Shown: positions 61 to 49,094 of the stretch, one piece after another
Position numbering within the stretch: position 1 is the first letter of the stretch
Layout of the letters: each line of letters begins with the position of its first letter
Virus record (IMG/VR): IMGVR_UViG_3300021437_000027
Span: 1-50,422 of that record
Source: a virus
DNA: 50,422 nucleotides
Direction: 5' to 3' (one strand)
Position numbers and translations under genes: made by a program
Notes under the pieces: model-generated
The model's database searches: none
What the model saw: the letters and a program-made list of their open reading frames with translations, nothing else
Told to the model about the DNA's origin: nothing

Positions 61-90
61 ATTGACCGTTTCGTCAATAGCAACTACCCT
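61..90 (+). promoter_or_regulatory. Operator-embedded early-type promoter upstream of the first gene
   Basis: The palindrome ATTGAC-CGTTTC-GTCAAT lies at 61-78. Its left half supplies a -35 hexamer TTGACC (62-67), followed by a 17-base spacer and a -10-like TACCCT (85-90). The same arrangement occurs upstream of several early transcription units in this window. A second, different palindrome, GTTGGAC-C-GTCCAAC (92-106), covers the predicted transcription start, so two regulators could act here. Confidence 0.6.
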
Positions 91-110
91 AGTTGGACCG
101 TCCAACCCCT

Positions 111-128
111 ATTGACCGAATCGTCACC
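111..128 (+). promoter_or_regulatory. Second copy of the early operator, abutting the first start codon
   Basis: ATTGAC-CGAATC-GTCACC is a diverged copy of the repeated palindrome and ends directly before the ATG at 129. No good -10 follows at the right distance, so it looks like an auxiliary operator rather than a second promoter. It takes the place where a Shine-Dalgarno sequence would be, and none is visible. Confidence 0.5.
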
Positions 129-914
129 ATGAAAAAACTTCTGACTGTGGCCGCCACGCTGGTCGCGCTGCTCATCACACACAGTGCCTGGGCCCGCGCC
201 GGTGGCGGTGTCTCAGTCGGCAGGGCCGCGCCCTCGATCGCTCGGTCTGTGCCTGCGCCCAGGTACACCCCGCCGCCAGCGCCCCGCCCCGTGGCTGCGC
301 CTACCCCTGCCGGCAATACCACCGTCATCAACCAAGGCGGTGGCTTCGCATCATCGTTCCTTGGCGGCGCGGCCGGCAGCCTGGTTGGCAATGCCCTCTC
401 ACACCCGTCGCCCCCCGTGGTCGCCGCACCCGTGATGGCCGGTACTGCAGTTGCCCACGGCATGGCACTGGCTGGCGCCACGCCCAGCATGCTCGTGGTC
501 GAGCAGCGATTTCCGTGGGGCTGGTTCTGGTTTGCCATCCTGCTGCTGGCAATCGCTGCTGCCGCTTTCTGGTGGTATCACCTGCAGCAGGCACTGGAGG
601 ACCATTTGAACGATGAGGAATTCGACGAACTGCACTTTTTCTATTCGGTGCAGCAGGCTTCGATGGACGATGACAAGTTCGCCCTGTCTCGTCTGTGCAC
701 CCCGGGCATGACTGCAGCGCTCTCGGGAAACCCCGAGCCTGGCCGCAACGCCATCAAAACCCTCACCGGCGTCACCTATGCGTGGTATGTGGGCGACTCG
801 GTGGAGTTCAGTTTCTTCGACACCAAGGAAAGCGTGCGGGTGCGTGAGCGCTGGCAGTTGCGCAACAACCGCCTGGAGGGCATCGAGGTGCTGGGCCCGG
901 CACAAGGCGAATGA
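129..914 (+). CDS. Secreted/membrane-anchored protein with Tim44-like C-terminal domain
   Basis: The 261-aa protein begins with a clear signal peptide (MKKLL..., cleavage probably after AWA near residue 23). A Pro/Ala-rich stretch follows, then one hydrophobic segment near residues 144-164 (FWFAILLLAIAAAAFWW), then a C-terminal domain (about 165-261) whose FYSVQQA...D...LCTPGM pattern resembles Tim44-like/NTF2-fold domains of bacterial membrane proteins. ATG 129 is chosen because it starts the signal peptide; a TTG at 93 lies in the promoter region. It overlaps terS by ATGA. Position before the terminase and an own operator-controlled promoter suggest an accessory gene, possibly altering the host envelope. 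That role is inference. Confidence 0.7.
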   Translation: MKKLLTVAATLVALLITHSAWARAGGGVSVGRAAPSIARSVPAPRYTPPPAPRPVAAPTPAGNTTVINQGGGFASSFLGGAAGSLVGNALSHPSPPVVAAPVMAGTAVAHGMALAGATPSMLVVEQRFPWGWFWFAILLLAIAAAAFWWYHLQQALEDHLNDEEFDELHFFYSVQQASMDDDKFALSRLCTPGMTAALSGNPEPGRNAIKTLTGVTYAWYVGDSVEFSFFDTKESVRVRERWQLRNNRLEGIEVLGPAQGE

Positions 915-1273
915 GCGAGACCCCCAGGCATGGCGGCGCGCGAGAAGGGGCCGGCGCACCGAGCGGCCCGCGTCAGCCGCCCAGCGAAGACAAACAGGAC
1001 TTTGACCACTGGCGGGCGCGCAGCGAGCGCGCCAAGGCGCTGCAGGCCGAGCTTGACCTGGGTGTGGCGGAGGGCCGCCTGGTGAACCGTGATTCGGTGC
1101 AGGCGGCCAGTGCCACCCTCCTGGCGGTGTTCACGCAGCACTGCCGCGGCATCGGTGACACCCTTGAGCGCACGCTGGGCTTGGCGCCCGAGGCCGCCGC
1201 CGCCATCTCCACCGAAATTGACGAGGCCCTGAGTGTGCTGGCCGACGACCTGAAAAAGATGGCCAATGGATGA
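911..1273 (+). CDS. terS: Terminase small subunit (probable)
   Basis: The 120-aa protein lies directly before terL and overlaps both neighbours (ATGA at 911-914 and 8 bases at 1266-1273). The N-terminus carries a basic Gly-rich segment (HGGAREGAGAP) like that at the start of many phage small terminases. The middle and C-terminus are helical and resemble Nu1-type oligomerisation regions (DSVQAASATLLAVF ... ALSVLADDLKKMA). It should bind the packaging start site and recruit TerL. No full winged-helix DNA-binding domain is obvious, so the assignment rests mainly on position and overall resemblance. Confidence 0.7.
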   Translation: MSETPRHGGAREGAGAPSGPRQPPSEDKQDFDHWRARSERAKALQAELDLGVAEGRLVNRDSVQAASATLLAVFTQHCRGIGDTLERTLGLAPEAAAAISTEIDEALSVLADDLKKMANG

Positions 1274-4200
1274 CTTCACGATTGCCCTGGGCGACGTTTG
1301 CTCGGGGTATGAGGCCCTGCGCCCGCCCAACCGTGTGACCGTCAGCGAGGGCATCGCCCAAACGCTCTACATCAAGCGCCCGGGTGGCGCCGCCGGCTAC
1401 TGGAACCCCGCCGAGACCAATTACATGGTTGAACCGGCGGATATGCTCGGCAGCCGGCGGCACGGCGCTGTGTGCTTTGTCGGCCCGGCGCAAACTGGCA
1501 AGGCGCTTGATGTAGATACGCCCATTCCAACCCCCGCCGGCTGGACACGCATGGGAGACCTCGTAGCTGGGGATGTGGTGCTTGGCGACGACGGCTACCC
1601 GTGCAAGGTGCTCGCCGCTCACGCGGTGCAACTCGATCGGCCCTGCTATCGCGTTGAATTTTCAGACGGCACGAGCATCGTGGCCGACGATGAACACCTT
1701 TGGACAGTTGATCGGTTCTATTGGGGCGCACCGAACTGGCGCGAGGTCACGCTGACCACCGCACAGATGCGGAAGCAGGGCGCGATTTATGGCGGCAACC
1801 GTCAGCGGTTCCACCTCCGCAACACCGATCCTCTGGCCCTGCCAGTGCTGGCCTTGCCTGTAGACCCATACGTGCTGGGCGCGTGGCTTGGAAACGGCAC
1901 CGCGCGCACAGATGTGCTGTCGTTTTGGGATCGAGACCTACCCCACTACGTCGAGGCTTTCCGGCGCGGCGGGCAGCACGTCGAGGCATCCAAGGACGGC
2001 CCGAATACTGTGTGGATGCGTGCGCCCGATCTTGCGCCCCTGCTGCAGGGCCTAGGCGTTCTCGGCAATAAGCACATCCCGCCGCAGTACCTGCGCGCCT
2101 CCTACACCCAGCGCCTGGCCCTACTGCAGGGTCTTATGGACACGGATGGATACCCGGGAATCGAAGGCAAGTCGGCAGTGGAGTTTTCCACGGTCATTGA
2201 CCGGCTGAAAGACGAGTTTCTAGAGTTGGCCCGCTCTCTCGGGCTGCGCCCCGTGGCGGCGCGCAAGGAAACTACTTGGACGCACGCAGGAGAGCGTCGA
2301 TATGGCGTGGCGTGGCGCGTCACGTTCTCCGTGTATCCGGGCCTGCCCGTGTTTCGACTGCCGCGAAAGGCAAGCAACTTCCAACCAGCAGAGAAGGATG
2401 TTCGACACCGCGGCATTGTCGCCATCACCCCGGTGCCGTCGCGGCCAGTCCGCTGCATCCTCGTGGACAACCCACGCCACCTGTTTTTGGCAGGGCCGGG
2501 CATGGTGCCCACCCACAACACTGTCGCTCTGGTAGACGGCTGGCTAGCCCACGCCGTGGCCAACGACCCCGGCGATTTCCTGTGCGTCCAGATGACCCAG
2601 GACAAGGCGCGTGAGTACAGCAAGCAGCGGGTGCAGCGCATGCTGCGCAACAGCCCCAAGCTGGCTGCCCTGAAGGGGCCGAGCGGCAAAGATGCCACCA
2701 TCCACGATTTCCTGTTTCGCCACGGCATGTGGGCCAAGATCGCATGGCCAACGGTTACCAACCTGTCGAGCACGAGCTACCGCTATGTGGCCATCACCGA
2801 CTACGACCGGATTGCCGACGATATTGACGGCGAGGGTGATGCGTTCACGCTGGGCCGCAAGCGCACGACCACGTTTCTGAGCCGCGGCATGATTGCGGTG
2901 GAGTCGAGTCCCGGCCGCCCGGTCACCGACCCCCACTGGCGCCCAGCCACACCGCACGAGGCACCACCAGTCAATGGCATCCTGGGTATCTACAACCGAG
3001 GGGACCGACGCCGGTGGTACTGGCCCTGCCCGCACTGCAAGGAATTCCACGAGGCGGCCCCGGGCATCGATATATTTGGCCTGCCCAGCACTGAGGAACT
3101 ACTGACCACCATCCGCCACATCAACATCGACAAGATGGCCAGGCAGTACGCGCGAATCCCCTGCCCGCACTGCGCCGCAGAGATTGGGCCTGAGCACAAA
3201 GACTGGATGAACCGCAGCGGGGTCTGGTTGCCCGATGGCGTCAAGATCGATACCCAGCGCCGCATGAGCGGCGAGGCCCGCACCTCGGACATTGCCAGTT
3301 ACTGGCTCGGCGGTGTGGCCGCCACCTATATCTCGTGGGAAATGCTGCTGCGCAAGCACCTGCAGGCCCTGCTGGAATTCGCCCTCACCGGCAACGAGTT
3401 GGCCTGGCAGACCACAGTGAACACCGATCAGGGCGGCCCGTACATGGCCAGGGCGCTCGCTGCGGCCCAGGCCGCCACCAGCCCCTCAGACCGCAAGGAT
3501 GCGAGCCTGCAGCGGTTCATCTGCCCGCCCTGGACGCGGTTCCTTGTGGCCTCAGTGGATGTGCAGGGCGGCATCGGCGCGCGGTTTGTGGTGCAGGTGC
3601 ACGCCATTGGTCCCTACCAAGAGCAGGCCCCTGTTGACCGTTACAACATCACAGAGAGTTTTCGGGATGGTGTGGGCGGCAAGGCCCCGGTAGACCCGGC
3701 CAGCTACGCAGAGGATTGGGACTGCATCACCGAACGGGTGCTGCGCAGCACCTACCGCATTGAGGGCCGCGATGACGAATTGCGTGTGCACCTCGTGGTG
3801 GTGGACACCGGTGGTGAGGGCCGCAAGGGCAAAAAGCAGGAGGGCGTCACCGAGCGTGCCTATGAGTGGTTCCGCCGCATCCGCCGCGAGGGTGAGCGCA
3901 AGCGGGTGGCCATCATCAAGGGCACCGGCCAGAAAGTTGACTGGTATGTGCGCCCCACCAAGGTCGGCGGCAAGGCCGGGCAGGGCGATGTGCCGCTGCA
4001 CCTGCTCAACTCCAACCTGCTCATGGACGCGGTGGACGCCAGTTCAAAGCGTGAGAGCGGGCCGGGTGCGCTGCGTTTCCCCGACTGGCTCACACCAGCC
4101 TGGTTTGAGGAATTCAGCGCCGAGGTGCGCAACGCCGATGGCACTTGGACACAGATTCGGGCCCGCAACGAGAGCGCCGACCTGTGCAAGTACGTGCGCG

Positions 4201-4421
4201 CCGGCTGCCTCATCCTGGGCGTGGACAAGTGGAAGGATTGGGACAATGTGCCGGCCTGGGCCCTGCCACTGGATGCAGGCAACGCCGGCCTCATCAGCGC
4301 CGACGCCCGCCGCGAGATGCGTGACAACGAGCGCATCGCCACCACGCCCCTGGCCACACCGGCGCAAGAGGCACCCCGGGCCTTCCCGCAGCGCCGGTCA
4401 ACGCCCTCCAACTACCTCTAG
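1266..4421 (+). CDS. terL: Terminase large subunit (GpA type) interrupted by an in-frame intein
   Basis: The 1051-aa precursor encodes a packaging ATPase-nuclease of the lambda gpA type (Terminase_GpA). Removing residues 80-418 (the intein) leaves 712 aa, close to the usual family size. The Walker A loop reads GPAQTGK-[intein]-TVALVDGW. Downstream are a Walker B-like strand (YRYVAITDYDRI), two CPHC zinc-type pairs and the C-terminal nuclease region. The protein would translocate DNA into proheads and cut concatemers, and cannot bind ATP properly until the intein is removed. Its stop overlaps by 4 bases, tail to tail, a small gene on the other strand. Confidence 0.92.
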   Translation: MDDFTIALGDVCSGYEALRPPNRVTVSEGIAQTLYIKRPGGAAGYWNPAETNYMVEPADMLGSRRHGAVCFVGPAQTGKALDVDTPIPTPAGWTRMGDLVAGDVVLGDDGYPCKVLAAHAVQLDRPCYRVEFSDGTSIVADDEHLWTVDRFYWGAPNWREVTLTTAQMRKQGAIYGGNRQRFHLRNTDPLALPVLALPVDPYVLGAWLGNGTARTDVLSFWDRDLPHYVEAFRRGGQHVEASKDGPNTVWMRAPDLAPLLQGLGVLGNKHIPPQYLRASYTQRLALLQGLMDTDGYPGIEGKSAVEFSTVIDRLKDEFLELARSLGLRPVAARKETTWTHAGERRYGVAWRVTFSVYPGLPVFRLPRKASNFQPAEKDVRHRGIVAITPVPSRPVRCILVDNPRHLFLAGPGMVPTHNTVALVDGWLAHAVANDPGDFLCVQMTQDKAREYSKQRVQRMLRNSPKLAALKGPSGKDATIHDFLFRHGMWAKIAWPTVTNLSSTSYRYVAITDYDRIADDIDGEGDAFTLGRKRTTTFLSRGMIAVESSPGRPVTDPHWRPATPHEAPPVNGILGIYNRGDRRRWYWPCPHCKEFHEAAPGIDIFGLPSTEELLTTIRHINIDKMARQYARIPCPHCAAEIGPEHKDWMNRSGVWLPDGVKIDTQRRMSGEARTSDIASYWLGGVAATYISWEMLLRKHLQALLEFALTGNELAWQTTVNTDQGGPYMARALAAAQAATSPSDRKDASLQRFICPPWTRFLVASVDVQGGIGARFVVQVHAIGPYQEQAPVDRYNITESFRDGVGGKAPVDPASYAEDWDCITERVLRSTYRIEGRDDELRVHLVVVDTGGEGRKGKKQEGVTERAYEWFRRIRREGERKRVAIIKGTGQKVDWYVRPTKVGGKAGQGDVPLHLLNSNLLMDAVDASSKRESGPGALRFPDWLTPAWFEEFSAEVRNADGTWTQIRARNESADLCKYVRAGCLILGVDKWKDWDNVPAWALPLDAGNAGLISADARREMRDNERIATTPLATPAQEAPRAFPQRRSTPSNYL
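1503..2519 (+). other. Class 3-type intein with degenerate LAGLIDADG endonuclease domain
   Basis: Residues 80-418 of the TerL precursor (339 aa) begin with Ala rather than Cys/Ser and end PTHN, followed by Thr of the Walker A motif. Block A is DVDTPIPTPAGW; block B is ADDEHLWT, with His144 and Trp146; block F contains Cys397 (RCILVDNP); the end carries Thr416-His417-Asn418. Ala1 plus this Trp-Cys-Thr set is the hallmark of class 3 inteins, in which the block F Cys is the first nucleophile. Between them are two LAGLIDADG-like helices: LGAWLGNGT (204-212) and LLQGLMDTDG (286-295). The first has Asn where the catalytic Asp is expected, so splicing is probably intact but homing is doubtful. Confidence 0.9.
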
Positions 4422-4606
4422 GGCTGGCGCTGCCACCACTCGTAGCCCACCCGCGCGGCAATCTCCAGGCCGCGGGAGGAATTGCCGCCCCCAATCGCTT
4501 TGAGCCGGCGGCGCGTCATCTCGTTGGTGCTGTAGGTGGTCGCCTTGACCGGCTCAGAGGGGTCGGCCAGCTTGGGGCCAGGCTTTCGGCGAGGGGGCTT
4601 GTCCAT
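4418..4606 (-). CDS. Small basic protein, possible ribbon-helix-helix DNA-binding protein
   Basis: This 62-aa gene lies on the opposite strand between terL and the gpW-like gene. The N-terminus is an AT-hook-like basic patch (RRKPGPK). A short strand (VKATTYS) and two predicted helices (TNEMTRRRLKAIGG, SSRGLEIAARVGYEWW) follow, as in Arc/MetJ-type ribbon-helix-helix proteins. Its stop overlaps the terL stop in a CTAG. No strong Shine-Dalgarno is visible. It would be transcribed against the late genes, so it may belong to the prophage or regulatory programme. Function is inferred only. Confidence 0.5.
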   Translation of the reverse strand: MDKPPRRKPGPKLADPSEPVKATTYSTNEMTRRRLKAIGGGNSSRGLEIAARVGYEWWQRQP

Positions 4607-4647
4607 ACCGGAACTCTACATAGAGATGCGGGGCATTTGGGTACAAC

Positions 4648-4667
4648 GAAATTGCCCGGCCGACATT
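4648..4667 (+). promoter_or_regulatory. Late-block conserved element, copy A
   Basis: GAAATTGCCCGGCCGACATT ends 32 bases before the gpW-like start. Near-identical elements lie before the protease/capsid block (10447) and before the tail tube gene (14252), all in intergenic gaps of the structural region. It contains the palindrome CGGCCG. A late promoter or activator-binding site is the simplest reading; an RNA processing site is the alternative. Confidence 0.5.
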
Positions 4668-4699
4668 AACGCCCCCCTCTCGGCAAACTCGCCGCCACT

Positions 4700-4920
4700 A
4701 TGGCGGTAACTCAGGCAGACATTGATGCGCTCAACGCGGCTATCGCGTCAGGCGAGCGGCAAGTGGTCATCGGCGGCGAGTCGATTACCTACAACACCAC
4801 CGACTCCCTGATTCGTGCGCGCAATGACCTCCTGGCCCAACTGAACGCTGCCACCGCACGCACTGAAGGCAAGCGCCGACCGCGGCAGACTGTGCTCACC
4901 TATCAAGGCCGGGGGTACTG

Positions 4921-4921
<1 letters not shown>
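4700..4921 (+). CDS. Head-tail joining protein, gpW-like
   Basis: The 73-aa protein resembles lambda gpW: an N-terminal helix (ADIDALNAAIASGE), a beta hairpin (RQVVIGGESITYN), a second helix (TDSLIRARNDLLAQLNAA) and a basic C-terminal tail ending in an aromatic residue. gpW is needed to stabilise DNA-filled heads and form the tail-binding surface. Gene order terL-gpW-portal is that of lambda. There is no Shine-Dalgarno; instead CCGCC-ACTAT-GGCGG (4692-4706) puts the start codon in a small hairpin loop. Its stop overlaps the portal start (TGATG). Confidence 0.8.
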
Positions 4922-6810
<1,889 letters not shown>

Positions 6811-6828
6811 CGGCTGAAGGAGCCACCC

Positions 6829-7215: not shown

Positions 7216-7228
7216 CCCTGGGCTGACC

Positions 7229-30088: not shown

Positions 30089-30368
30089 GCGCTATCTCCT
30101 TGTGCTCATCACACTGCTGGCCACGGGCTGCAGCAAGCCGCCCACCGCTGAGCAGGTGGCGCTCGACAAGTGCAAAGGTGCGATCCTGGCCAAGCTCATC
30201 GACCCCGAGAGCGCACGCTTCACTGAGCCGATGGTTGTTGACCTGAACAGTGGCCGCAACGCCCGGTTCATCGTCAACAGCAAGAACCGCATGGGTGGGT
30301 ACTCGGGCCGCGAGCCGTTCATATGCGAGTTCGATGCAGCCGGTGAGGTGAGCAAGGTCATTCCTTAG
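30087..30368 (+). CDS. Small lipoprotein, inverted relative to its neighbours
   Basis: The 93-aa protein has a signal peptide ending in a lipobox (LLATGC, Cys about residue 15), then a small domain with a conserved-looking DPESARF motif and one further Cys. It is the only + strand gene among leftward genes. A -10-like TGTAAT (30071-30076) sits just 10 bases before the ATG, implying a nearly leaderless mRNA; no Shine-Dalgarno is seen. Its stop overlaps the converging gene by 4 bases. A periplasmic or outer-membrane lipoprotein expressed alone could act in superinfection exclusion; this is inference. It is not Rz1-like. Confidence 0.72.
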   Translation: MRYLLVLITLLATGCSKPPTAEQVALDKCKGAILAKLIDPESARFTEPMVVDLNSGRNARFIVNSKNRMGGYSGREPFICEFDAAGEVSKVIP

Positions 30369-30649
30369 CCCTCCACTGGAAGGGCACCCCCAGCTTGCTG
30401 CTGGCGCCGACCCCATGCCGCACGTTGGGCGCGCTCCACATCCACCAAGTTCGGCCCGGATTGCTTGATGACGTGCATACCGAGGCCAAACAGGAACACC
30501 GCGGCCGGGTAGCCCGCGTCGTTCTTGCAAAAACCTTCATAGGTCGTCTCGGCTTCGGCAAACGTGCCACACAGCACGCTGATACCGCTGCCGTTGCAGT
30601 AGAGGTCTTTTGGGCCGTAGATACGGCGGCAGCTTACTTCGTATCCCAT
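30365..30649 (-). CDS. Cys-containing hypothetical protein, 94 aa
   Basis: ATG 30649 follows GGAG seven bases upstream, which decides the start against a longer reading. The product (MGYEVSCRRIYGPKDLYC..., FGLGMHVIKQSGPNLVDVER) contains four Cys in its first half. It looks like a small folded phage protein of unknown role. It has its own strong predicted promoter (TTGACG-17-TAATAT) with the early operator. Confidence 0.65.
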   Translation of the reverse strand: MGYEVSCRRIYGPKDLYCNGSGISVLCGTFAEAETTYEGFCKNDAGYPAAVFLFGLGMHVIKQSGPNLVDVERAQRAAWGRRQQQAGGALPVEG

Positions 30650-30686: not shown

Positions 30687-30716
30687 ATATTAACGGTAAC
30701 TAACCTAGTCGTCAAT
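30687..30716 (-). promoter_or_regulatory. Operator-embedded promoter with near-consensus -10
   Basis: On the minus strand TTGACG is followed by a 17-base spacer and TAATAT. The operator is one good half site (GTCAAT) and one weak half (ACTAAC) at N6 spacing (30699-30716). It drives the 94-aa gene and lies in the gap before it. Of the set, this is the promoter closest to sigma70 consensus. Confidence 0.65.
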
Positions 30717-32386: not shown

Positions 32387-33454
32387 TCAAGGCTTGATCC
32401 TCACAATGATCGGCTCGACCCCACGCGGGTCGGCGTAGAGTGCGTCAGTCCTCTCATCCTTGTGGCTGAAAAGGTGCTGCGTGTCCACGTTGCCCTGGGC
32501 TTTGTAGAGGCGCTTGGCCAGGGACTTGATTTCGTAGAAGGTAGGGGCTACCTGGCCGTTGGGCATCACGTCCGGTATGCCCGCGCGCTGTCGGGCATCG
32601 GTGAACCGCTTGGTGATGCGCTGCACGAAAACCGGCTTGCCGTCAGGCCAGGCGACGAGGTAGCCCTTTGGCACAGCCTGCACCAACTCGCGCAACGTCC
32701 AACCGTTCACGCTGAGGTCGAGCGGGATGGCCACGGGCTGATTGGTCGCCCGTGTCTTGTTGCGCTGCACCACCAGATATTCACCGCCCTCGATCGTCTG
32801 TAGCATATTGGTGTGCATACGCGCTACCGTCTCACGGTCCTGCCCGGTCACGAGCAGCAGCAGCATCGCCTGCGGCAGCCAATCCTCGGCCTTTGCCAGG
32901 ACGGCGTTGAACTGCTCCAGAGTGAGGCGGTCACGCTTGATGCGCGGCGAGGGCGCCTCTGTGGGTTCCGCAGGGTTCCGCTCGACCCACCCAAGATTCA
33001 TGGCGCGCTTGAACATTTGCACCATGCGACTTCGCAACGATTGCGCTTGGCGCTCGTGGCCCCGCTCTCTGCTGTTCTCCAGCAACTTTGCGCAGTCAAT
33101 CACTCGGACGCTTGACACCGGGGTCTCGGCGCCCAGGCCGACGAGGATCAACTTATCGAGTGCGCGCCATGTCTTGGCAGTGTTGGGCATCTTTGCGACG
33201 GGCATCTTGGCCACCAGCATGGACATGGTGTTGTTGGCACCCATGATGCGCGCGACCAGGCTAGGCTTGCGTGCGCTCAGGGCCGCCAGCGCGGCGATGG
33301 CCTCATCCTTGGCGAACTGCAGCGGAACCCGGCCGATAACTGCCTGATGCAGAGTGCTATCGGAAGTGCTCCAGCGGAACACGAAATAGCCGGGCGCGGT
33401 CTCGTAGAGGCCCCTAGGCCAATCACGGCGCTTCAAGTTGCGGCGGGCGGGCAT
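32387..33454 (-). CDS. int: Tyrosine integrase with substituted active-site residues
   Basis: The 355-aa protein is a lambda-type integrase: basic arm-binding N-terminus (RRNLKRRDWPRGLYE), core-binding region about 80-165, and catalytic domain about 175-350. By alignment of motifs, Arg207 (GQDRETVARM), Lys233 (QRNKTRA), His331 (LFSHKDE) and Tyr340 (ALYADPRG) are present. The central motif, usually HE-x-R, reads TFYEIKSL, so Tyr307 replaces His and Lys310 replaces the second catalytic Arg. It would integrate the phage at a host site; no attP could be identified. It is transcribed in the same direction as xis and the ssDNA-binding gene. Confidence 0.85.
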   Translation of the reverse strand: MPARRNLKRRDWPRGLYETAPGYFVFRWSTSDSTLHQAVIGRVPLQFAKDEAIAALAALSARKPSLVARIMGANNTMSMLVAKMPVAKMPNTAKTWRALDKLILVGLGAETPVSSVRVIDCAKLLENSRERGHERQAQSLRSRMVQMFKRAMNLGWVERNPAEPTEAPSPRIKRDRLTLEQFNAVLAKAEDWLPQAMLLLLVTGQDRETVARMHTNMLQTIEGGEYLVVQRNKTRATNQPVAIPLDLSVNGWTLRELVQAVPKGYLVAWPDGKPVFVQRITKRFTDARQRAGIPDVMPNGQVAPTFYEIKSLAKRLYKAQGNVDTQHLFSHKDERTDALYADPRGVEPIIVRIKP

Positions 33455-34270: not shown

Positions 34271-34486
34271 TCAAACCCCCAGCCGCTGCGTGAGCGGCAC
34301 ATAGTCAGGACGTGCGGCGCCCACCTTCTCGGCGGTCTCCAACACGCGGTAGTCGGCGCCCACCTTGTCAGCAGGCGGATGAATTTTTTCCTCGCGGCAC
34401 CACCGGCGCAGCGTGTGGATGCTGGGCACAGGCGAGTAGCGAGCGGCGGCCCACTCCTGCAGCGGTATCCACTTGGCGCGGGTCAC
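34271..34486 (-). CDS. xis: Excisionase (Xis-like)
   Basis: The 71-aa protein resembles lambda Xis: WIPLQEWAAARYSPVPSIHT followed by LRRWCREEKIHPPADKVG and a short YRVLETAEKV segment, giving the winged-helix with a wing ahead of a basic tail. It should bend attachment-site DNA and steer integrase towards excision. It starts at GTG 34486 overlapping the previous stop and lies in the same operon as int, but three small genes separate them. Confidence 0.8.
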   Translation of the reverse strand: MTRAKWIPLQEWAAARYSPVPSIHTLRRWCREEKIHPPADKVGADYRVLETAEKVGAARPDYVPLTQRLGV

Positions 34487-34803
34487 GGGGCACTCCGTTC
34501 GATCAGGCTCACCATGCTGCGGCTCACACCCAGGTCGCTGGCAATGGAATCCAAGGGCTCACCATGCTTGCGGCGACGGCGCACGATTTCAGCGTTGCGG
34601 GCGAACTTGGCAACGCGCTCGGCCACGGTGGCGAGGTAGTTGCGCTGGCGTTGCTTTGCGCTGCAGTACACCGCCCCATGCACCTCAATGGTGGGGAAGG
34701 TGTGGCCATTGGCGCACCGGCGGCGGCGCTCCGTGCGGTGCCCGCCATCTTTGGCCCGGGTGTCCAGCACCTCAGACCACGCGCCGCATTTGCTGCAGTT
34801 CAC
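34483..34803 (-). CDS. Zinc-ribbon plus HTH regulator (NrdR-like N-terminus)
   Basis: GTG 34803 overlaps the previous stop (GTGA) and gives a 106-aa protein. It starts with a zinc ribbon (NCSKCG...RRRRCANGHTFPT) very similar in layout to the N-terminus of NrdR, followed by a basic linker (QRQRNYLATVAERVAKF) and a C-terminal HTH (SIASDLGVSRSMVSLIERS). It lacks the ATP-cone of NrdR. The combination indicates a DNA-binding regulator; the target is unknown. Confidence 0.7.
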   Translation of the reverse strand: MNCSKCGAWSEVLDTRAKDGGHRTERRRRCANGHTFPTIEVHGAVYCSAKQRQRNYLATVAERVAKFARNAEIVRRRRKHGEPLDSIASDLGVSRSMVSLIERSAP

Positions 34804-35285
34804 TTGACCCCCAGGTACTGGCGCCACGGGACTTTCTTCCCGTCAACAAAGAAACCCCAGGTGCCTTGGTAGCGCCACGTAATGAACAAGGTCCAAACGC
34901 CATCTGGTGACACGCTGACGATCCGGTGGTACTCACCATGCTTGATAGCTGCCGTTTCACCAGGAGCGCGGAGCAGTTGCTTTCCGTCCAAGCGTTCCTC
35001 GACATAGACACCGCGCAGAATGATGGTGCGGGCATTCCAGGGGTGGTCATGCAGGTGCCGGTCACTGTCAGCTCTGCAGATGTGGTGTACCCGGATCGAC
35101 GGCAACCACTCCCATCGCTTAGCCGCTCCCGATTCGGGGTAGGGGTTGAACAGCCACCACCTGCCCATGTAGAGGCTGCGGCCATCTGCCGAACGAATGT
35201 GCGTGTAGGGAGTGCGCTCGGCACGCTTGTAGAGCCACTGCGCAACACAGGGCATTGCCGCAACACGGGCGATCAGCCCCCACAT
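34800..35285 (-). CDS. Cupin-like protein
   Basis: The 161-aa protein carries a metal-binding cupin signature, DRHLHDHPWNARTIILRGVYVE (here given as HLHDHPW followed by ILRGVYVEE), and a second strand pair with HGEYHRI. Cupin-fold proteins of this kind are found in many phage early regions without known substrate. ATG 35285 has GAGGT nine bases upstream and follows an overlapping TGATG stop-start; GTG 35288 is an alternative. Confidence 0.7.
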   Translation of the reverse strand: MWGLIARVAAMPCVAQWLYKRAERTPYTHIRSADGRSLYMGRWWLFNPYPESGAAKRWEWLPSIRVHHICRADSDRHLHDHPWNARTIILRGVYVEERLDGKQLLRAPGETAAIKHGEYHRIVSVSPDGVWTLFITWRYQGTWGFFVDGKKVPWRQYLGVK

Positions 35286-35701: not shown

Positions 35702-36568
35702 TCAGGGGAGCAGGTGCCCGGCCTGGATCATCTGCGCGTCGTTCCAGCCACCATCGATGAACGACTGATAGGTGTAGCCGGCGGCCAGGGCGGCAGGGCT
35801 CATGCGCTTGGCAGGCACTGCGAGGATAGCCGGGTTGGGCGGCACGGGAGGGGGCGCCACAGGGGCGGCCGGTGGCGCCACGTAGGCGGCGGGCGCAGCG
35901 GCCACAGGCACCTGGGGCGCCACGGCAGCGGGGGGCAGGGCATTCACCGGCACGGCGCTGGCGCCAGCGGGCAGGGGAGACTGGCCGAAACCGGCCTGCG
36001 TCGGATCGGGGCCGAAAGTGATTTCCGGGCCATAGCCGGCCAGCGCGACCATGCTGTGGTTGAGGTAGATGCCGGGCTGCTGCATGCTGCCGTTGCCATC
36101 CACACTGCCGGCGATCTGCACGTAGTAACCGGGCTTGACGGCATCGGGTTCTGCGATGGGTGCCGAACCATTGGCGTTGAAAATCCGGGGGGCGTAGCCG
36201 CCGCCGAAATTGAGCACCCAGCAACCGCGGTAGCCCTCCTGATCGACCGGCCGCTTGCCTTGGCGGTTGGGCACCGCGCTGTCACCGTCGATGATTTTCC
36301 AGGCAAAGGTCGGCGCCAGGGCCTGACCCTGCGGGAAGCAACCCAGGCCCACCGTGTGGATGACCTGGCCCCACGCGGTCTGGTTCCAGTGCGCTTCACC
36401 CTGCTTGGGGATGGCAATGGCCATGTAGTAATCCACACGGGCCTGGCCGGCGTTCGGGCCCGACTTGATGACCAGAGGCTTGCCCTCGGCGTCGGTGGTC
36501 TGCGGCTTGTAGAGATTGCCGCGCACGAGGCGGCCCACGGGGGTGGTGAAAGTCTTGGCGGTGCTCAC
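35702..36568 (-). CDS. Phage ssDNA-binding-like protein (DUF2815-like)
   Basis: GTG 36568 follows GGAG nine bases upstream; a longer reading would run into the promoter. The first about 180 residues (TPVGRLVRGNLYKPQTTDAEG, SGPNAGQARVDYYMAIAIPK, GCWVLNFGGGYAPRIFNANG) resemble the phage OB-fold ssDNA-binding proteins annotated as DUF2815. An Ala/Pro/Val-rich linker and a short C-terminal domain follow (AALAAGYTYQSFIDGGWND). It likely coats single-stranded DNA in replication and recombination. It opens the int/xis-containing operon. Confidence 0.75.
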   Translation of the reverse strand: MSTAKTFTTPVGRLVRGNLYKPQTTDAEGKPLVIKSGPNAGQARVDYYMAIAIPKQGEAHWNQTAWGQVIHTVGLGCFPQGQALAPTFAWKIIDGDSAVPNRQGKRPVDQEGYRGCWVLNFGGGYAPRIFNANGSAPIAEPDAVKPGYYVQIAGSVDGNGSMQQPGIYLNHSMVALAGYGPEITFGPDPTQAGFGQSPLPAGASAVPVNALPPAAVAPQVPVAAAPAAYVAPPAAPVAPPPVPPNPAILAVPAKRMSPAALAAGYTYQSFIDGGWNDAQMIQAGHLLP

Positions 36569-36599: not shown

Positions 36600-36629
36600 A
36601 GTCTGCTATTTATTGACGGAGGTGTCAAT
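36600..36629 (-). promoter_or_regulatory. Operator-embedded promoter of the ssDNA-binding/xis/int operon
   Basis: On the minus strand TTGACA, a 17-base spacer and CAGACT lie over the palindrome ATTGAC-GGAGGT-GTCAAT (36612-36629). The perfect outer hexamers make this one of the best operator copies. Transcription would start near 36593 and first read the gene starting at 36568. Confidence 0.65.
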
Positions 36630-39468: not shown

Positions 39469-39498
39469 TTGGCGTCCCTTCAGTTGTTGAGGGTTCCG

Positions 39499-39529
39499 AC
39501 CATATTTGCTACTGACGCTAATTGTCAAC
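39499..39529 (-). promoter_or_regulatory. Leftward early promoter with diverged operator
   Basis: On the minus strand TTGACA is followed by an 18-base spacer and TATGGT. The palindrome is diverged (ACTGAC and GTCAAC with a 7-base spacer, 39511-39529). It drives the leftward operon beginning at 39468. Confidence 0.55.
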
Positions 39530-39536
39530 AAGCACA

Positions 39537-39573
39537 AATAGCGAAAAAAATAGCGGGCTAATTTTTCGCTATT
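39537..39573. promoter_or_regulatory. AT-rich 12-bp inverted repeat between the divergent early promoters
   Basis: AATAGCGAAAAA (39537-39548) and TTTTTCGCTATT (39562-39573) are exact inverted copies with a 13-base loop. It lies between the leftward and rightward operators and overlaps the first bases of the rightward one. It could bind a regulator, act as a bidirectional terminator or help unwind the region. Confidence 0.5.
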
Positions 39574-39600
39574 GACGGTTGCGTCAGAAATAGCGAGACT
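39571..39600 (+). promoter_or_regulatory. Rightward early promoter with operator
   Basis: ATTGAC-GGTTGC-GTCAGA (39571-39588) supplies TTGACG as -35; after 17 bases comes GAGACT (39595-39600). Transcription would start only about 4 bases before the helicase ATG at 39611, suggesting a leaderless or nearly leaderless mRNA. The helicase gene lacks a clear Shine-Dalgarno, which fits. Confidence 0.55.
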
Positions 39601-39610
39601 CGCGGCGCCC

Positions 39611-41230
39611 ATGCCTACCCACTCACTTCGCTACTACCAGCACGACCTCGTGGTCGGCGTCAAAGCCGCCTGGTCGCGGGTTCGCAACGTCCTTGCCGTG
39701 TCGGCCACGGGCAGCGGCAAAACCGTGGTGGTGGCCAGCCTCATTGCCGATGAGCCCGGCGCGTCTTGTTTCATCGCCCACCGCACTGAACTGGTCTCAC
39801 AGGCCAGCATCGCCCTGGCGCGCGAGGGGATCGTGCACCGGGTCATCGGCCCGGACAGCCTGCGCCGCAACTGCGCCGCCATCCATGTGGCCGAGTTCGG
39901 CCGCAGCTTCTACGACCCCAACGCACGCACCGCAGTTGCGGGGGTTGACACACTCGTGCGGCTGCCGGAGTCCGACCCTTGGCGGCATCAGGTGCGCCTG
40001 TGGGTGTGCGACGAGGCTCACCACCTGCTAGAGCAAAATAAGTGGGGCACCGCCGTCACCCTGTTCCCCAACGCTCGTGGCCTGGGTGTGACCGCCACGC
40101 CCATGCGCGCCGATGGCAAGGGGCTGGGCCGCCACGCTGACGGGCTGATTGACGAGATGGTGGTGGGCCCACCGATGCGCCAGTTGATCGACGAGGGCTG
40201 GCTGACCCGCTACCGGGTCTTTGCGCCGCCCTCAGACCTTGACCTGACTGCCGTGGCGGTATCGGCCAGCGGCGACTACTCGCCCGAGCCACTGCGCAAG
40301 GCGGTGCACCGCAGCCACATCGTGGGCGACGTGGTGGCCCACTATCTGCGCATCGCCCGGGGTAAGCTGGGCATGACCTTCTGCGTGGATGTGGAAGGGG
40401 CGACCGAGACCGCCGAGGCGTTCCGCGCCGCCGGCATCCCGGCCGAGGTCATCAGCGGCAAGACGCCCGAGCTTGAGCGGGCAGCCATCATGCGCCGGTT
40501 CCGCTCGCGGCAGGTGCTGCAGATCGTCAGCGTGGACATTCTTGGCGAGGGCACCGATGTGCCTGCTGTCGAGGTGGTCAGCATGGCGCGGCCAACGCAG
40601 TCCTATGGGCTCTATGTGCAGCAGTTCGGCCGCGGTCTGCGCCTCATGGACGGCAAGGAATTTGCGCTCATCATCGACCACGTTGGCAACGTTCAGCGCC
40701 ACGGGCTGCCCGATGCGCCGCGCCGCTGGTCGCTCGATCGACGCGAGCGCCGTGCTGCGGGCCCGCGTGACGCAATCCCGCTGCGCACCTGCCTGAACAC
40801 CGATTGCGTGAGCGTCTACGAGCGCCTGCTGCCGGCCTGCCCGTTCTGCGGCACCGTCGCGCCGCCACCGGCCACGCGGGGCTCACCGGCTCAAGTTGAT
40901 GGTGACCTGGTGGAACTGACGCCCGAGGCGCTGGACAGGCTGCGGGGCGAAATTGAGCGGGTGGACGGTGCGCCGGTGCTGCCCTATGGTGCTGGCCCCG
41001 CAGCCGCTGGATTCGTCAAGCGCCACCACTGGGAGCGCCAGCAGGCCCAGGACACGCTGCGCAAGGCTATCGCTGCTTGGGGTGGCCTCATGGCGGCCAG
41101 GCGCGGCCTGGACACCTCGCAGCAGCAAAAACTTTTCTTCTACACCTTTGGGGTCGATGTGGGCACTGCTCAGACGTTGAATGCTGCGGATGCGGATGCA
41201 CTGCGGGCTCGGGTGGAGGGGGCCGCGTGA
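39611..41230 (+). CDS. SF2 DEAD/DEAH-type helicase
   Basis: The 539-aa protein has a superfamily 2 helicase core: SLRYYQHDLV (Q-motif-like start), Walker A SATGSGKT, DEAH box (CDEAHHLL), motif III (VTATPMRADG), and motifs V-VI (SVDILGEGTDVPAVE, QQFGRGLRL). A C-terminal zinc-ribbon-like pair (CLNTDC...CPFCG) and a helical tail follow. Such helicases help replication-fork restart or recombination in phages. ATG 39611 is chosen by domain start. It overlaps the methyltransferase start (GTGA). Confidence 0.9.
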   Translation: MPTHSLRYYQHDLVVGVKAAWSRVRNVLAVSATGSGKTVVVASLIADEPGASCFIAHRTELVSQASIALAREGIVHRVIGPDSLRRNCAAIHVAEFGRSFYDPNARTAVAGVDTLVRLPESDPWRHQVRLWVCDEAHHLLEQNKWGTAVTLFPNARGLGVTATPMRADGKGLGRHADGLIDEMVVGPPMRQLIDEGWLTRYRVFAPPSDLDLTAVAVSASGDYSPEPLRKAVHRSHIVGDVVAHYLRIARGKLGMTFCVDVEGATETAEAFRAAGIPAEVISGKTPELERAAIMRRFRSRQVLQIVSVDILGEGTDVPAVEVVSMARPTQSYGLYVQQFGRGLRLMDGKEFALIIDHVGNVQRHGLPDAPRRWSLDRRERRAAGPRDAIPLRTCLNTDCVSVYERLLPACPFCGTVAPPPATRGSPAQVDGDLVELTPEALDRLRGEIERVDGAPVLPYGAGPAAAGFVKRHHWERQQAQDTLRKAIAAWGGLMAARRGLDTSQQQKLFFYTFGVDVGTAQTLNAADADALRARVEGAA

Positions 41231-43618: not shown

Positions 43619-43854
43619 CGCTCACCTTTGGCAGCGCGTGTAGTGGAATAGAGGCCGCGTCCGTGGCCTTCACGCCCCTCGGCTGGCGGGCCGCGGTGGA
43701 CTGCCCCGACGACCCTCGCTATCGGGCGCTCGGTAATTCTTGGGCGGTGCCCTGCGTAGCCTGGATCGGAGCGCGTCTGTACGCTCATCTCTACAGACTA
43801 AATTCTGCCATTGACGCGACCGTCAATAGCGACCACACTGTGGGCGTCGTGTAG
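43615..43854 (+). pseudogene. Internally deleted DNA cytosine-5 methyltransferase
   Basis: The 79-aa reading frame joins the first about 27 residues of a phage Dcm-type enzyme (FGSACSGIEAASVAFTPLGWR, motif I, given here in part as SACSGIEAASVAF) directly to its last about 40 residues (CPDDPRYRALGNSWAVPCVAWIGARL, motif X region, in part RYRALGNSWAVPC). Motifs IV (PC), VI, VIII and the target recognition domain are absent. Normal enzymes of this type have over 200 residues between these parts. The frame is open and ATGA-coupled to the gene before, but it cannot be a working methyltransferase. Its 3' end contains an early operator. Confidence 0.85.
43810..43839 (+). promoter_or_regulatory. Operator-embedded promoter upstream of the TetR-like gene
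   Basis: ATTGAC-GCGACC-GTCAAT (43810-43827) has perfect outer hexamers. TTGACG, a 17-base spacer and CACACT (43834-43839) form the promoter. It lies inside the end of the truncated methyltransferase frame and about 110 bases upstream of the TetR-like start, so the regulator probably controls its own gene. Confidence 0.65.
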
Positions 43855-43946
43855 CTATTCAGGTGCTACCACTAACCGCAACTAACGTCAACCCCCGGCC
43901 CGAGTAATAGACTATGAGCACTCTCAACAAACCCACGGAGTCCGTA

Positions 43947-44261
43947 ATGGCCACCACCCGGCTGCGCCTCGACCCCAAGGTGCGCAAGGCTGCTCTACTC
44001 AAGGTCTCCCTCGATCTGGCGGCAAAACACGGCATCCACCACATTACTCGGGACATGATCGCTCTGGCTGGGGATGTGAGCCCCGGCCTGGTCTCGCAGT
44101 ATTTGGGCACGATGGATGCCCTTCGAAAGCTGGTGATGCGCGAAGCCGTCAAGCAACAGGTGGTGCCTGTTGTCGCCCAGGGGATTGCTAACCGGGACAG
44201 GGCGACTCTCAAGGTGTCCGACGAGTTGAAGCAGAAGGCGCTCGCTTATCTGGCCCGCTGA
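43947..44261 (+). CDS. Short TetR-like DNA-binding regulator
   Basis: ATG 43947 has a GGAG seven bases upstream; an earlier ATG at 43914 lacks one. The 104-aa protein has a TetR-type HTH: AALLKVSLDLAAKHGIHHIT (helix 1), RDMIALAGDVSPGLVSQYLG (helices 2-3, recognition helix) and TMDALRKLVMREAV (helix 4). The usual TetR ligand-binding domain is reduced to about 40 residues. It lies just after one of the early operators. It is the best candidate for the repressor of the operator set, a role inferred from position and fold. Confidence 0.72.
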   Translation: MATTRLRLDPKVRKAALLKVSLDLAAKHGIHHITRDMIALAGDVSPGLVSQYLGTMDALRKLVMREAVKQQVVPVVAQGIANRDRATLKVSDELKQKALAYLAR

Positions 44262-44264
44262 CCT

Positions 44265-46928: not shown

Positions 46929-46934
46929 TCCGGC

Positions 46935-47183
46935 TCAGAGTTTGGCGTGGCGCAGAGGAACGCCCGCTTGCGCCGCTGCCAGGCAGGCCAGGCCCTCGCG
47001 CACCAGGCGCTGCTGCACCTGCGGGGCATTGTGGGGGCCGTGCTTTTGCGCCAGGGCGTCAAGCACCCCGGGCGGGGCGTCCACGCGGCCGGTGATGGTC
47101 ACGGTAAACCCGCTTTCGTGGCGAGCTACTGCACCCTCGACCGACCACAGGGCCTGCCATTTGTAGTGGCGGCTGTTGGCCAT
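46935..47183 (-). CDS. Hypothetical protein, 82 aa
   Basis: ATG 47183 directly follows the stop of the gene upstream (TGAATG overlap). The protein has a beta-rich N-terminal half (KWQALWSVEGAVARHESGFTVTITGRV) and a helical C-terminal half (QVQQRLVREGLACLAAAQ). It converges on the primase gene, 6 bases apart. Function unknown; coupling to neighbours supports a real gene. Confidence 0.6.
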   Translation of the reverse strand: MANSRHYKWQALWSVEGAVARHESGFTVTITGRVDAPPGVLDALAQKHGPHNAPQVQQRLVREGLACLAAAQAGVPLRHAKL

Positions 47184-47381
47184 TCAGGGCGCCTCTCGGG
47201 CCAGTTGATCGGCCAGCGCCACCAGGGTCTCGATGGCGTCATAGGGGGCGGCCATTCGCAGGGCAATGTCTCCCGCCGCGTCTCGCCGTTCCAGCGCGCC
47301 GGGTGGGAACGCGGCAGTCCAAAGAATCCCCACCTCTCTGAAGCACTCGCCCGGTATTGACAGGTTAGGCCGCTCGCTCAC
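47184..47381 (-). CDS. Hypothetical protein, 65 aa
   Basis: The gene starts at GTG 47381 in a GTGA overlap with the gene before it and ends at the start of the next. The short product (ILWTAAFPPGALERRDAAGDIALRM, given in part as GILWTAAFPPGALERRDAAG, then DAIETLVALADQLAREAP) is mainly helical. No family is recognised. Confidence 0.55.
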   Translation of the reverse strand: MSERPNLSIPGECFREVGILWTAAFPPGALERRDAAGDIALRMAAPYDAIETLVALADQLAREAP

Positions 47382-47551
47382 TGCGACGGTTCTTTGATGC
47401 GCCGGATTGCGGCTTCTACTGCCGCCGTCCCGACGCGGGCAGCCTTCTCAACCACGTCCTGATAGGTTCGCATGCTCAGGCGTGCGGCGCGCTTCAGTTC
47501 GGGCGGCAACGCAGGCCGCCCGGCCTTCTTTGGTTCGGGCGGATTGTTCAT
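47378..47551 (-). CDS. Small basic protein, 57 aa, possible DNA-binding
   Basis: ATG 47551 overlaps the previous stop (ATGA) and the stop overlaps the next start (GTGA). The product begins NNPPEPKKAGRPALPPELKR, an AT-hook-like GRP segment, then LSMRTYQDVVEKAARVGTAAVEAAIRRI, here read as two helices. The layout recalls the small basic ribbon-helix-helix-like protein near 4.5 kb. It is too short for standard length cut-offs but well supported by its overlaps. Confidence 0.62.
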   Translation of the reverse strand: MNNPPEPKKAGRPALPPELKRAARLSMRTYQDVVEKAARVGTAAVEAAIRRIKEPSQ

Positions 47552-47823
47552 GACCAGCGCACAGTCTTGCGGCCACGGGTTGCAGTAGCCACCGTCAGCA
47601 GGTCAGGGATGCTGTCATCGTCACTGCTGACAACGATGGCCACGTCGCAAACGCCGTCCTCTGAATCGCGCGCCCACATTTGCGCGACTTCTGCCGCCGC
47701 CTTGCGCGCTTCGGCCTTGTTCTTGAACTCGCCGTTGTTCATCGCCTCGAAAAGCTCTCCGCCTGCAAAATTCACGGTGCGACCGCCTTGACCGAGGTTA
47801 CCGAGGGTGTAGGTCTTGCTCAT
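47548..47823 (-). CDS. Hypothetical protein, 91 aa
   Basis: ATG 47823 follows GGAGAG. The acidic protein has an N-terminal beta segment (YTLGNLGQGGRTVNFAGGEL), a helix (EARKAAAEVAQMWARDSED) and a final strand region (CDVAIVVSSDDDSIPDLLTV). It heads a four-gene leftward operon of short genes with its own non-operator promoter. Function unknown. Confidence 0.65.
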   Translation of the reverse strand: MSKTYTLGNLGQGGRTVNFAGGELFEAMNNGEFKNKAEARKAAAEVAQMWARDSEDGVCDVAIVVSSDDDSIPDLLTVATATRGRKTVRWS

Positions 47824-47868
47824 GTTCGTCTCTCCAGTTGCTGGTCAGCACCGCGCTGCCCATGAACA

Positions 47869-47921
47869 TTAATGTACGCCATACAGCATCGGTATTGCAA
47901 GCCTTTTATGTGCGCCACAAA
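47869..47921 (-). promoter_or_regulatory. Promoter with a second type of operator repeat
   Basis: On the minus strand TTGCAA (47895-47900), an 18-base spacer and TACATT (47871-47876) form a promoter for the gene at 47823. Two direct repeats, TTAATGTACGCCATACA (47869-47885) and TTTATGTGCGCCACAAA (47905-47921), flank it 36 bases apart. One copy covers the -10. The main early operator is absent here, so another regulator is likely. Confidence 0.5.
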
Positions 47922-48109
47922 TGTAAAGTTTCACGCTTTGGGGATGCCTCAGTGAGGGTGAGGCTGCAGTGGTGGCCCGCCATGACCGCCACGCGGGCCT
48001 CGCAGTAGCCATCGGGTTCGCCCCGTGGTCGCCACGAGGGGCGGTGAGGTGCCTGGGTCAGACGCAGGCTGCCGTAGACGCGGGAGAGGGCGGTTAGAGG
48101 TGCGCCCAT
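47906..48109 (-). CDS. Hypothetical protein, 67 aa
   Basis: ATG 48109 lies 2 bases after the stop of a 33-aa gene. The protein (GAPLTALSRVYGSLRLTQAP, later EARVAVMAGHHCSLTLTEAS) is short, probably beta-rich, with a basic middle. No strong ribosome site is visible, so translation may depend on the gene upstream. No family is recognised. Confidence 0.5.
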   Translation of the reverse strand: MGAPLTALSRVYGSLRLTQAPHRPSWRPRGEPDGYCEARVAVMAGHHCSLTLTEASPKRETLHLWRT

Positions 48110-48111
48110 GT

Positions 48112-48213
48112 TCAGACCCACCAGAGGGGGTCATACCCTTCCGAATAGCCGATGAAACAGGCATTGCGGAACCACGGGTTGAAGTCGCTCATTTTCTGAT
48201 CGTCAATGAACAT
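48112..48213 (-). CDS. Micro-protein, 33 aa
   Basis: ATG 48213 is preceded by GGGGAG eight bases upstream. The 33-aa product (MFIDDQKMSDFNPWFRNACF, ending in GYSEGYDPLWWV) is rich in aromatic residues and has non-random composition for this genome. It lies between two leftward genes with 5-base and 2-base gaps. Ribosome site, spacing and composition support a real micro-gene; function unknown. Confidence 0.6.
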   Translation of the reverse strand: MFIDDQKMSDFNPWFRNACFIGYSEGYDPLWWV

Positions 48214-48218
48214 GGCGC

Positions 48219-49019
48219 TTACTCCCCAAGTGCGGTGCGCAGGGCCAGCGAGTGGTCGAGCAGTTCGCCCAGCGCGGGCTCGCTGCCGTCCAAATTCTCG
48301 GCGCGGATTTCCCGCAGGTAGGCGTCGAGGTCGTTGAGCATTGCCAGCACCTCGCCGTGCGACTGCTGCATGGCAGTGAAGGTGGGCAACCCAACATCCT
48401 GCAGGTAGGCGTCTGCGTTGGCCACGGCCTCGTCGCGGGCGCTAGGTTCCTCCAGCACTTCGCCCACAGGAATGGCCGGGGCGTCAGCAGTGATGGTGCC
48501 GCCCATCACTGCCATGTTCGTTGGCCACTTGTCGCCAGAATAGACCGAGGTGCTATTGCCCTCGCCGTCAATTACGAACAGGGCGAAACGGGGAGCGTTA
48601 GCCGGCTCCCGCGCCTCGGCCAGCGGGTGCTGAATCCACATGCGCAATGTACGGTCCGGGCTCTCAAAGCGGGGGCAGGCGTCGTTGCCTTCGGACACGT
48701 CGCACCATCCCGCGTCCAGTAGTTCGTGGGCCTCGGCCATATGGGGGAAATTGAAGTGCTCCACGATGTAGCGCGGCAGGCGCTCGTTGGGAGCATGCAC
48801 GCCCGCCTCGATAGCGTGGATCCCGGCCGCGTGGCAGCACTCACTCATGAAGTCGATGAGGTGCTGGCGCAGATCGTCGCTGTCGCTCAGATCGGGGTCA
48901 GTCGCGTCGAACTCACCGACGAGGGATTCGTACAAGGCCACAAGGGTGGCGTGGTCGGGGGCCGCGTAGATTTCGGCCACATCGCGCTGGAAGTGGGGGA
49001 GGGAAGGGTTCAGGGACAT
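48219..49019 (-). CDS. Acidic hypothetical protein, 266 aa
   Basis: ATG 49019 has a GGAGAA six bases upstream and an operator-type promoter about 50 bases upstream. The protein is acidic and mostly helical (LVALYESLVGEFDATDPD, DLRQHLIDFMSECCHAAGIHAIEAG), with a central strand region (PRFALFVIDGEGNSTSVYSG) and a coiled-coil-like C-terminus (LAMLNDLDAYLREIRAENL). No catalytic motif is recognised. Acidic, early, operator-controlled genes of this kind could be host-takeover or DNA-mimic proteins, which is speculation. Confidence 0.65.
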   Translation of the reverse strand: MSLNPSLPHFQRDVAEIYAAPDHATLVALYESLVGEFDATDPDLSDSDDLRQHLIDFMSECCHAAGIHAIEAGVHAPNERLPRYIVEHFNFPHMAEAHELLDAGWCDVSEGNDACPRFESPDRTLRMWIQHPLAEAREPANAPRFALFVIDGEGNSTSVYSGDKWPTNMAVMGGTITADAPAIPVGEVLEEPSARDEAVANADAYLQDVGLPTFTAMQQSHGEVLAMLNDLDAYLREIRAENLDGSEPALGELLDHSLALRTALGE

Positions 49020-49063
49020 GCTGGTTCTCCGTAGAGCACCCCCGGGCTGGGGGCATGCGTTGC

Positions 49064-49094
49064 ATTGTGCATCGTTATTGACGCAACCGTCAAT
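49064..49094 (-). promoter_or_regulatory. Operator-embedded promoter of the 266-aa gene
   Basis: ATTGAC-GCAACC-GTCAAT (49077-49094) has perfect outer hexamers. On the minus strand TTGACG, an 18-base spacer and CACAAT form the promoter. It lies in the gap between the stop at 49098 and the start at 49019. Confidence 0.65.

Follow-up and report, generated by a model that had tools for sequence, protein, structure and literature searches.

A palindrome embedded in early phage promoters as the probable operator of a short phage-borne TetR-like protein

What acts on a palindrome that recurs at the promoters of a phage genome, and to what end? The DNA considered here, IMG/VR virus record IMGVR_UViG_3300021437_000027 (50,422 bases, 65% G+C; hereafter the window), carries repeated copies of ATTGAC-N6-GTCAAT, which an earlier note on the sequence had described as embedded in the -35 elements of early promoters and as forming a phage-wide regulon. 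Sequence tests bear this description out: the palindrome is intergenic, recurs in the same gene contexts in related phages and is accompanied by a -10 peak at 17 bp. We put a probability of roughly three in four on the reading that TATTGAC-N6-GTCAATA is the operator of the phage's own TetR-like protein of 115 amino acids, which would act as an autoregulated repressor of early and accessory promoters.

All sites named in the earlier note were found where it had placed them (Table 1): four exact copies, at 61, 36612, 43810 and 49077, three copies with two mismatches, at 111, 30699 and 39571, and a variant with a seven-base spacer (N7) at 39511. When exact half-site pairs were scanned at spacings of 0-15, a spacing of 6 gave the four copies and every other spacing gave none. 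Half-site counts predict about 0.006 exact dyads per window, and none of 100 windows simulated under an order-1 Markov model contained one. A dyad position weight matrix (PWM) built from 36 sites of relatives, with the window kept out, recovered the sites at 61, 111, 36612, 39571, 43810 and 49077 at 21-32 bits; the scan of window and related phages that the earlier note had called for thus finds the main sites again. We set the threshold at 14 bits because matches of 9-12 bits are unreliable, with eight in phage ZF40, which lacks the TetR-like gene. At this threshold the window holds 8 matches versus 0.13 for column-permuted dyad PWMs, and this comparison and the simulated windows together reject a chance origin of the dyads. 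Six of the 8 matches fall in non-coding DNA, which makes up about 8% of the sequence; the two coding matches (14742 and 48555) are the weakest, at 14.7-14.8 bits. In a set of seven phages, 39 of 54 sites fall between genes, with non-coding DNA amounting to 10.5% of the sequence (p = 1e-26; genes of relatives were called with our own simple caller). The comparison of coding regions with gaps on which the earlier note had staked its proposal comes out in favor of gaps.

The position of the palindrome within the promoter is fixed. Read on the strand of the downstream gene, its first half is TTGACn, the -35, its second half lies in the spacer and a -10 follows. The -10 hexamers claimed 17-18 bases beyond TTGACn are present, at 17 bp for the sites at 61, 30699, 36612, 39571 and 43810 and at 18 bp for those at 39511 and 49077, and the distance from palindrome start to start codon is 40-104 bases, mostly 61-75. 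One element of the description has to be reversed: TTGACn had been assigned to the half facing the gene but sits in the gene-distal half, with the gene-side half in the spacer. When 88 oriented sites are combined, the -10 score reaches +2.4 at a spacing of exactly 17 bp and is negative at all other offsets. Promoters were also chosen blind to the dyad, as TTGACn-17-(T/C)AnnnT before a start codon. Among relatives that we place in class A by their recognition helix (see below), GTCAA (at least 4 of 5 bases) stands at the dyad offset in 72 of 102 such promoters and in 0-6 at other offsets; in class B it does so in 2 of 38. Ordinary promoters do not conserve their spacer sequence, and because GTCAA is conserved in the spacer here, a bound protein is the simplest reading. 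Plain -35 conservation was rejected as an explanation, since it leaves the spacer GTCAA unaccounted for.

Two statements of the earlier note hold in part. The copy at 111 does touch the ATG at 129 but has no convincing -10 of its own; if it is active at all, it would be the second operator of a pair, lying over the leader and start codon. The sites were also said to serve early or accessory units and not virion blocks. The early and accessory contexts stand, but the sites at 61 and 111 precede a chain of genes overlapping end to start (129-914, 911-1273 for the terminase small subunit and 1266-4421 for the large subunit) and so head a unit leading into terS-terL.

Megablast of the window yielded no useful phage match, and single-protein scans of viral and genome contigs returned no relatives; these were reached only with a profile search. 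Homologs of the 115-residue protein occur in Shewanella phages SppYZU01 and SFCi1, Aeromonas phage AeroV_348 and Acinetobacter phage Scuro, as well as in Klebsiella, Pectobacterium, Alteromonas, Vibrio and other phages and, by the profile, in 30 IMG/VR contigs. The dyad itself is present in phages of Klebsiella, Pectobacterium, Edwardsiella, Acinetobacter, Shewanella and Vibrio. In Scuro it has the core TGACA-N4-TGTCA and precedes the tetR gene, the single-stranded DNA (ssDNA)-binding protein gene and two other units, and it also lies between the divergent helicase and exonuclease operons. When inverted repeats are searched for de novo, TTGACG-N4-CGTCAA ranks with the leading families of JD001 (11 copies), PEAT2 (16) and CP-T1 (9), and some JD001 dyads precede plus-strand accessory genes amid minus-strand virion genes, an arrangement that the earlier note had proposed for the window. 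A site stands directly before the tetR gene in the window, Scuro, JD001, PEAT2, MSW-3 and the relatives L012, L015, L018, L021-L024 and L034, and the palindrome before the ssDNA-binding/annealing gene of the window recurs at the same position in Scuro, JD001, PEAT2 and SppYZU01. In phiPLPE (L051), degenerate copies, TTG(A/C)CG-N4-CG(T/G)CAA, were seen at 5082, 6572, 6626 and 11921, one of them just before an unlabelled tetR homolog; by their sequence they appear to be a drifted form of the same operator.

The occurrence of the dyad follows the recognition helix of the TetR-like protein. Class A helices are mostly S-x-G-x-V (MGLV, PGLV, HGTV, MGSV, TGIV and TGTV), and class B helices read PQAI, TALI, PPAV or PPAI. 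At 14 bits or above, the 23 class A genomes and contigs (570 kb) contain 107 sites versus 1.8 for column-permuted dyad PWMs, and 22 of the 23 hold at least two; the class figures are descriptive, 18 class A members having supplied PWM sites. Twelve class B relatives have 4 such sites in total and nine ambiguous relatives 5, no member of either group having two, and four phages that lack the TetR-like gene have 1 between them. The dyad thus appears to mark relatives with one helix type of the protein and to be absent from relatives without the gene. In class B phages these promoters hold palindromes of a different sequence, placed in the spacer or on the -10: PY6 has GTAGCGC-N4-GCGCTAC five times between TTGAC and TACACT/TACGCT, and SFCi1 and its kin have a ATAGGGGGCA..TGCCCCTTAT palindrome over the -10. 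The palindrome of AeroV_348 is GGGCTA-N4-TAGCCC, and that of Psp6 is AAATCATAAATTATGATTT.

We then consider the protein itself. Its homologs match Pfam TetR_N in 20 of 22 cases (best E 3e-12), and a profile of them matches TetR-family chains in the PDB, including HapR, LuxR and SmcR. In an AlphaFold2 model of the window protein (mean predicted local distance difference test score 85), for which Foldseek gives LuxR bound to DNA as the best PDB match, 64 residues superpose on HapR at 1.4 A with 34% identity. An N-terminal TetR_N helix-turn-helix (HTH) domain is recognizable through homologs, profile and model, and a dyad lies near the protein's own gene, at 43810 before the gene at 43914, as in many relatives. 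The C-terminal ligand-binding/dimerisation domain is missing from the 115 residues, and beyond the HTH the model has nothing but short helices (67-113). The protein is classed as a variant TetR type because the ligand-binding domain of canonical TetR regulators is absent; judged by sequence and model, it seems to act like the DNA-binding domain of a LuxR/HapR-type TetR protein, not like a canonical full-length TetR. Some homologs (L005:38065-38562, L008:21427-21924, L012 and kin) have a second N-terminal TetR_N-like domain, a tandem HTH arrangement of about 165 amino acids; the window protein has one.

Operator and fold point to the same relatives. We take the consensus of the Vibrio LuxR operator to be TATTGATAAATTTATCAATAA, into which the base positions named in the literature fit. 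V. harveyi LuxR binds a 21-bp dyad in which A2, T3, G5, A6, A8, T12, A14, T15, A17, A18 and A20 are named (PMC2628434). Compared with an operator reconstructed from these positions and our assumed consensus, TATTGAC-N6-GTCAATA matches all twelve outer bases at an identical spacing, and the PWM consensus has the TATTGA-N8-TCAATA half-sites of a LuxR/HapR operator. The inner bases differ, C7/G14 in the phage versus T7/A14 in LuxR, and the V. harveyi study lists A14G, the phage base, among the most benign changes to the LuxR operator (PMC2628434). The phage system thus shares with Vibrio LuxR, HapR and SmcR (TetR family, 21-22 bp operator) the DNA-binding fold, the half-sites and spacing (as far as the named positions go) and a single regulator with many sites. 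It differs in that the regulator is phage-borne, measures about 115 amino acids versus about 200, lacks the ligand-binding domain and has its sites fixed inside promoters at the -35 and spacer.

We propose that the TetR-like protein would sit on the palindrome as a dimer, masking the -35 hexamer and the leading part of the spacer in a sigma-70 promoter and so denying access to host RNA polymerase. The predicted targets are the gene of the regulator itself, the helicase operon and the leftward operon diverging from it, the ssDNA-binding/annealing gene and the accessory cassettes; these would fire at once on infection and then shut down together as the regulator accumulates. We infer repression with negative feedback because the operator lies over the -35 and spacer, a site stands at the regulator's own gene and genes of replication, recombination and accessory function share the control. 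What the DNA itself shows is where the sites lie, how constant their geometry within promoters is, that they recur across phages and that they go with the TetR-like gene and its helix type. That the protein binds them, does so as a dimer, represses instead of activating and acts with the timing just described is what we would expect from these data, as is any part it may play in lysogeny.

Table 1. Palindromes, associated promoter elements and the TetR-like gene of the window.
Feature	Position	Strand	PWM score (bits)	-35, spacer, -10	Context
Exact palindrome, ATTGACCGTTTCGTCAAT	61..78	+	24.9	TTGACC (62-67), 17 bp, TACCCT (85-90)	Before gene 129-914 and terS-terL chain
Two-mismatch palindrome	111..128	+	22.4		Touches ATG at 129
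Weak palindrome, one good half	30699..30716	-	12.0 (under 14-bit threshold)	TTGACG, 17 bp, TAATAT	Before gene 30365-30649
Exact palindrome	36612..36629	-	30.0	TTGACA, 17 bp, CAGACT	Before Gp2.5-like ssDNA-binding/annealing protein gene 35702-36568 (phrog_7011, E 5e-71)
N7 variant	39511..39529	-	Sequence and geometry only	TTGACA, 18 bp, TATGGT	Before leftward operon starting 39468
Two-mismatch palindrome	39571..39588	+	20.9	TTGACG, 17 bp, GAGACT	Before helicase gene 39611-41230 (phrog_16, E 2e-84), nearly leaderless
Exact palindrome	43810..43827	+	23.1	TTGACG, 17 bp, CACACT	Before TetR-like gene (putative autoregulatory site)
Exact palindrome	49077..49094	-	31.7	TTGACG, 18 bp, CACAAT	Before leftward unit 49019-46935
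TetR-like regulator, 115 aa	43914..44261	+			Directly behind 43810 site; phrog_8723, E 2e-25

Several observations weigh against this proposal. Taken alone, the window protein matches TetR_N at E 0.021 and 15 bits, versus a Pfam cut-off of 24; the Foldseek E-values are modest (6e-3); and only about 45 residues follow the HTH domain, which bears on dimerisation. Strong class A sites are missing from L009, L010, L037 and Psp6 even though their helices resemble class A. The helix classes are descriptive, defined after the data had been seen, and many of the contigs are close kin. Two of the window sites, 30699 and the N7 variant at 39511, are weak, the latter unscored because the PWM is blind to a seven-base spacer. 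In L034 and L027, sites are present though another residue replaces the helix G.

The TetR-like protein might instead bind these sites and activate the promoters, as could be imagined from V. harveyi LuxR, the nearest solved relative, which acts as both activator and repressor (PMC2628434). We consider this improbable: these promoters come with TTGAC and a 17-bp spacer of their own, a dimer bound at the site, over the -35 and spacer, should block polymerase, and class B operators lie in the spacer or over the -10. It is a shade less probable that another phage regulator binds the dyads and the TetR-like gene is merely a target. Two proteins with DNA-binding motifs are at hand, the zinc-ribbon/HTH protein at 34483-34827 and a Mor-like protein at 49855-50241; the dyads nevertheless track whether the TetR-like gene is present and which helix type it encodes (the only gene for which distribution was compared), and the operator matches that of a TetR-family protein, LuxR.

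Equally slim is the chance that a host TetR-family regulator, such as a LuxR/HapR-like protein, binds the palindrome and links the early genes to host state. Agreement with the reconstructed LuxR operator at the outer twelve positions would suit such a regulator, and HapR may cross-bind in Vibrio phages, but the same dyad occurs in phages of all the host genera listed above and is missing from relatives and look-alikes without the phage gene. Least credible is a dyad that arises, without any regulator, where divergent promoters overlap so that their -35 boxes face each other: TTGAC does read on both strands, the opposite-strand -10 score rises weakly at 17 bp (-0.44 versus about -3) and some sites lie between divergent genes, but at most sites only one side has a gene, conservation extends to the outer TA flanks and class B palindromes without TTGAC occupy the same promoters.

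With repression by the TetR-like protein as the preferred reading, we asked how the phage compares with classical circuits. In these circuits, exemplified by the lambda CI/Cro operators and the mycobacteriophage L5 stoperators, one phage protein acts at many sites to shut off early promoters. The proposed circuit would follow the same plan with a TetR fold, whereas classical phage repressors are XRE-type. No XRE/S24 (CI/Cro-like) match was found among about 30 early-region proteins scanned with Pfam, a subset of the open reading frames of the record, and a lambda-type XRE repressor pair is accordingly missing from that set. The window sites are symmetric and embedded in promoters, unlike L5 stoperators, which are asymmetric and lie in one orientation along transcription units. 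Both an integrase (32387-33454) and an excisionase (34271-34486) are encoded, as expected of a temperate phage; a genome scan for prophage copies gave two weak generic TetR matches and no prophage. Because integrase and excisionase are present and a CI/Cro-like gene was not found among the scanned early proteins, the TetR-like protein may also hold lysogeny, and in integrase-bearing members, including the window phage, the same regulator could silence the prophage.

Other features of the window lie outside this argument. The large terminase subunit is of the lambda gpA type over residues ~420-1036, and its long N-terminal extension matches DnaC-like helicase loaders and another large-terminase family, an unusual fusion. 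The protein at 34483-34827, in the leftward operon, combines an NrdR-like zinc ribbon with a sigma-70 region 4-like HTH and is possibly a second regulator. The Mor-like protein (Pfam Mor, E 7e-7; phrog_836 'late transcriptional activator', E 2e-16) is a candidate late activator; its gene appears to stand outside the regulon because the promoter-like site at 49817 (TTGACA-17-TACTCT) has no dyad. Adjoining this gene, 49573-49655 and 49717-49798 form nested perfect inverted repeats with 47-nt and 27-nt arms; folded as a single strand, they give a very stable hairpin (-102 kcal/mol, z -23). These long repeats are perhaps an origin, a terminal structure or a mobile-element remnant. Three 20-base tandem copies at the record end (50357-50422) perhaps mark where assembly stopped.

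TetR-like genes have been annotated before, in Jedunavirus JD001 and in the phiPLPE-like dwarf myoviruses CP-T1, 138 and phiPLPE, for which an osmotic stress role was suggested and neither promoters nor palindromes were mentioned (PMC3391216). In phiPLPE-like myoviruses and Jedunavirus JD001 the homologous tetR gene adjoins the primase/helicase block, as in the window phage. The gene annotation is thus already known from that paper and from database records; no operator, promoter or regulon for this gene was found in the literature searched, which excluded subscription papers and so is not proof of absence, and operator and regulon are apparently undescribed.

'TetR family regulator' genes in dozens of phages, many of them phages of Klebsiella, have sat without a role and now have a testable one, along with a binding site and a list of targets. 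Recognition helix and operator change together across the relatives, which offers natural material for studying the evolution of repressor specificity. A broader extension, which we regard as rather unlikely, is that a phage-specific family of miniature TetR proteins takes the place of CI/Cro as chief repressor and immunity regulator in a broad group of dwarf myoviruses and their relatives, its specificity having switched repeatedly with the helix as the operator moved between -35 and -10 inside the promoter. CP-T1 is reported to be temperate although it has none of the known lysogeny genes (PMC3391216), and the TetR-like protein is a candidate for its repressor. If the broader extension were true, miniature TetR immunity would explain temperate phages such as CP-T1 that are without known lysogeny genes.
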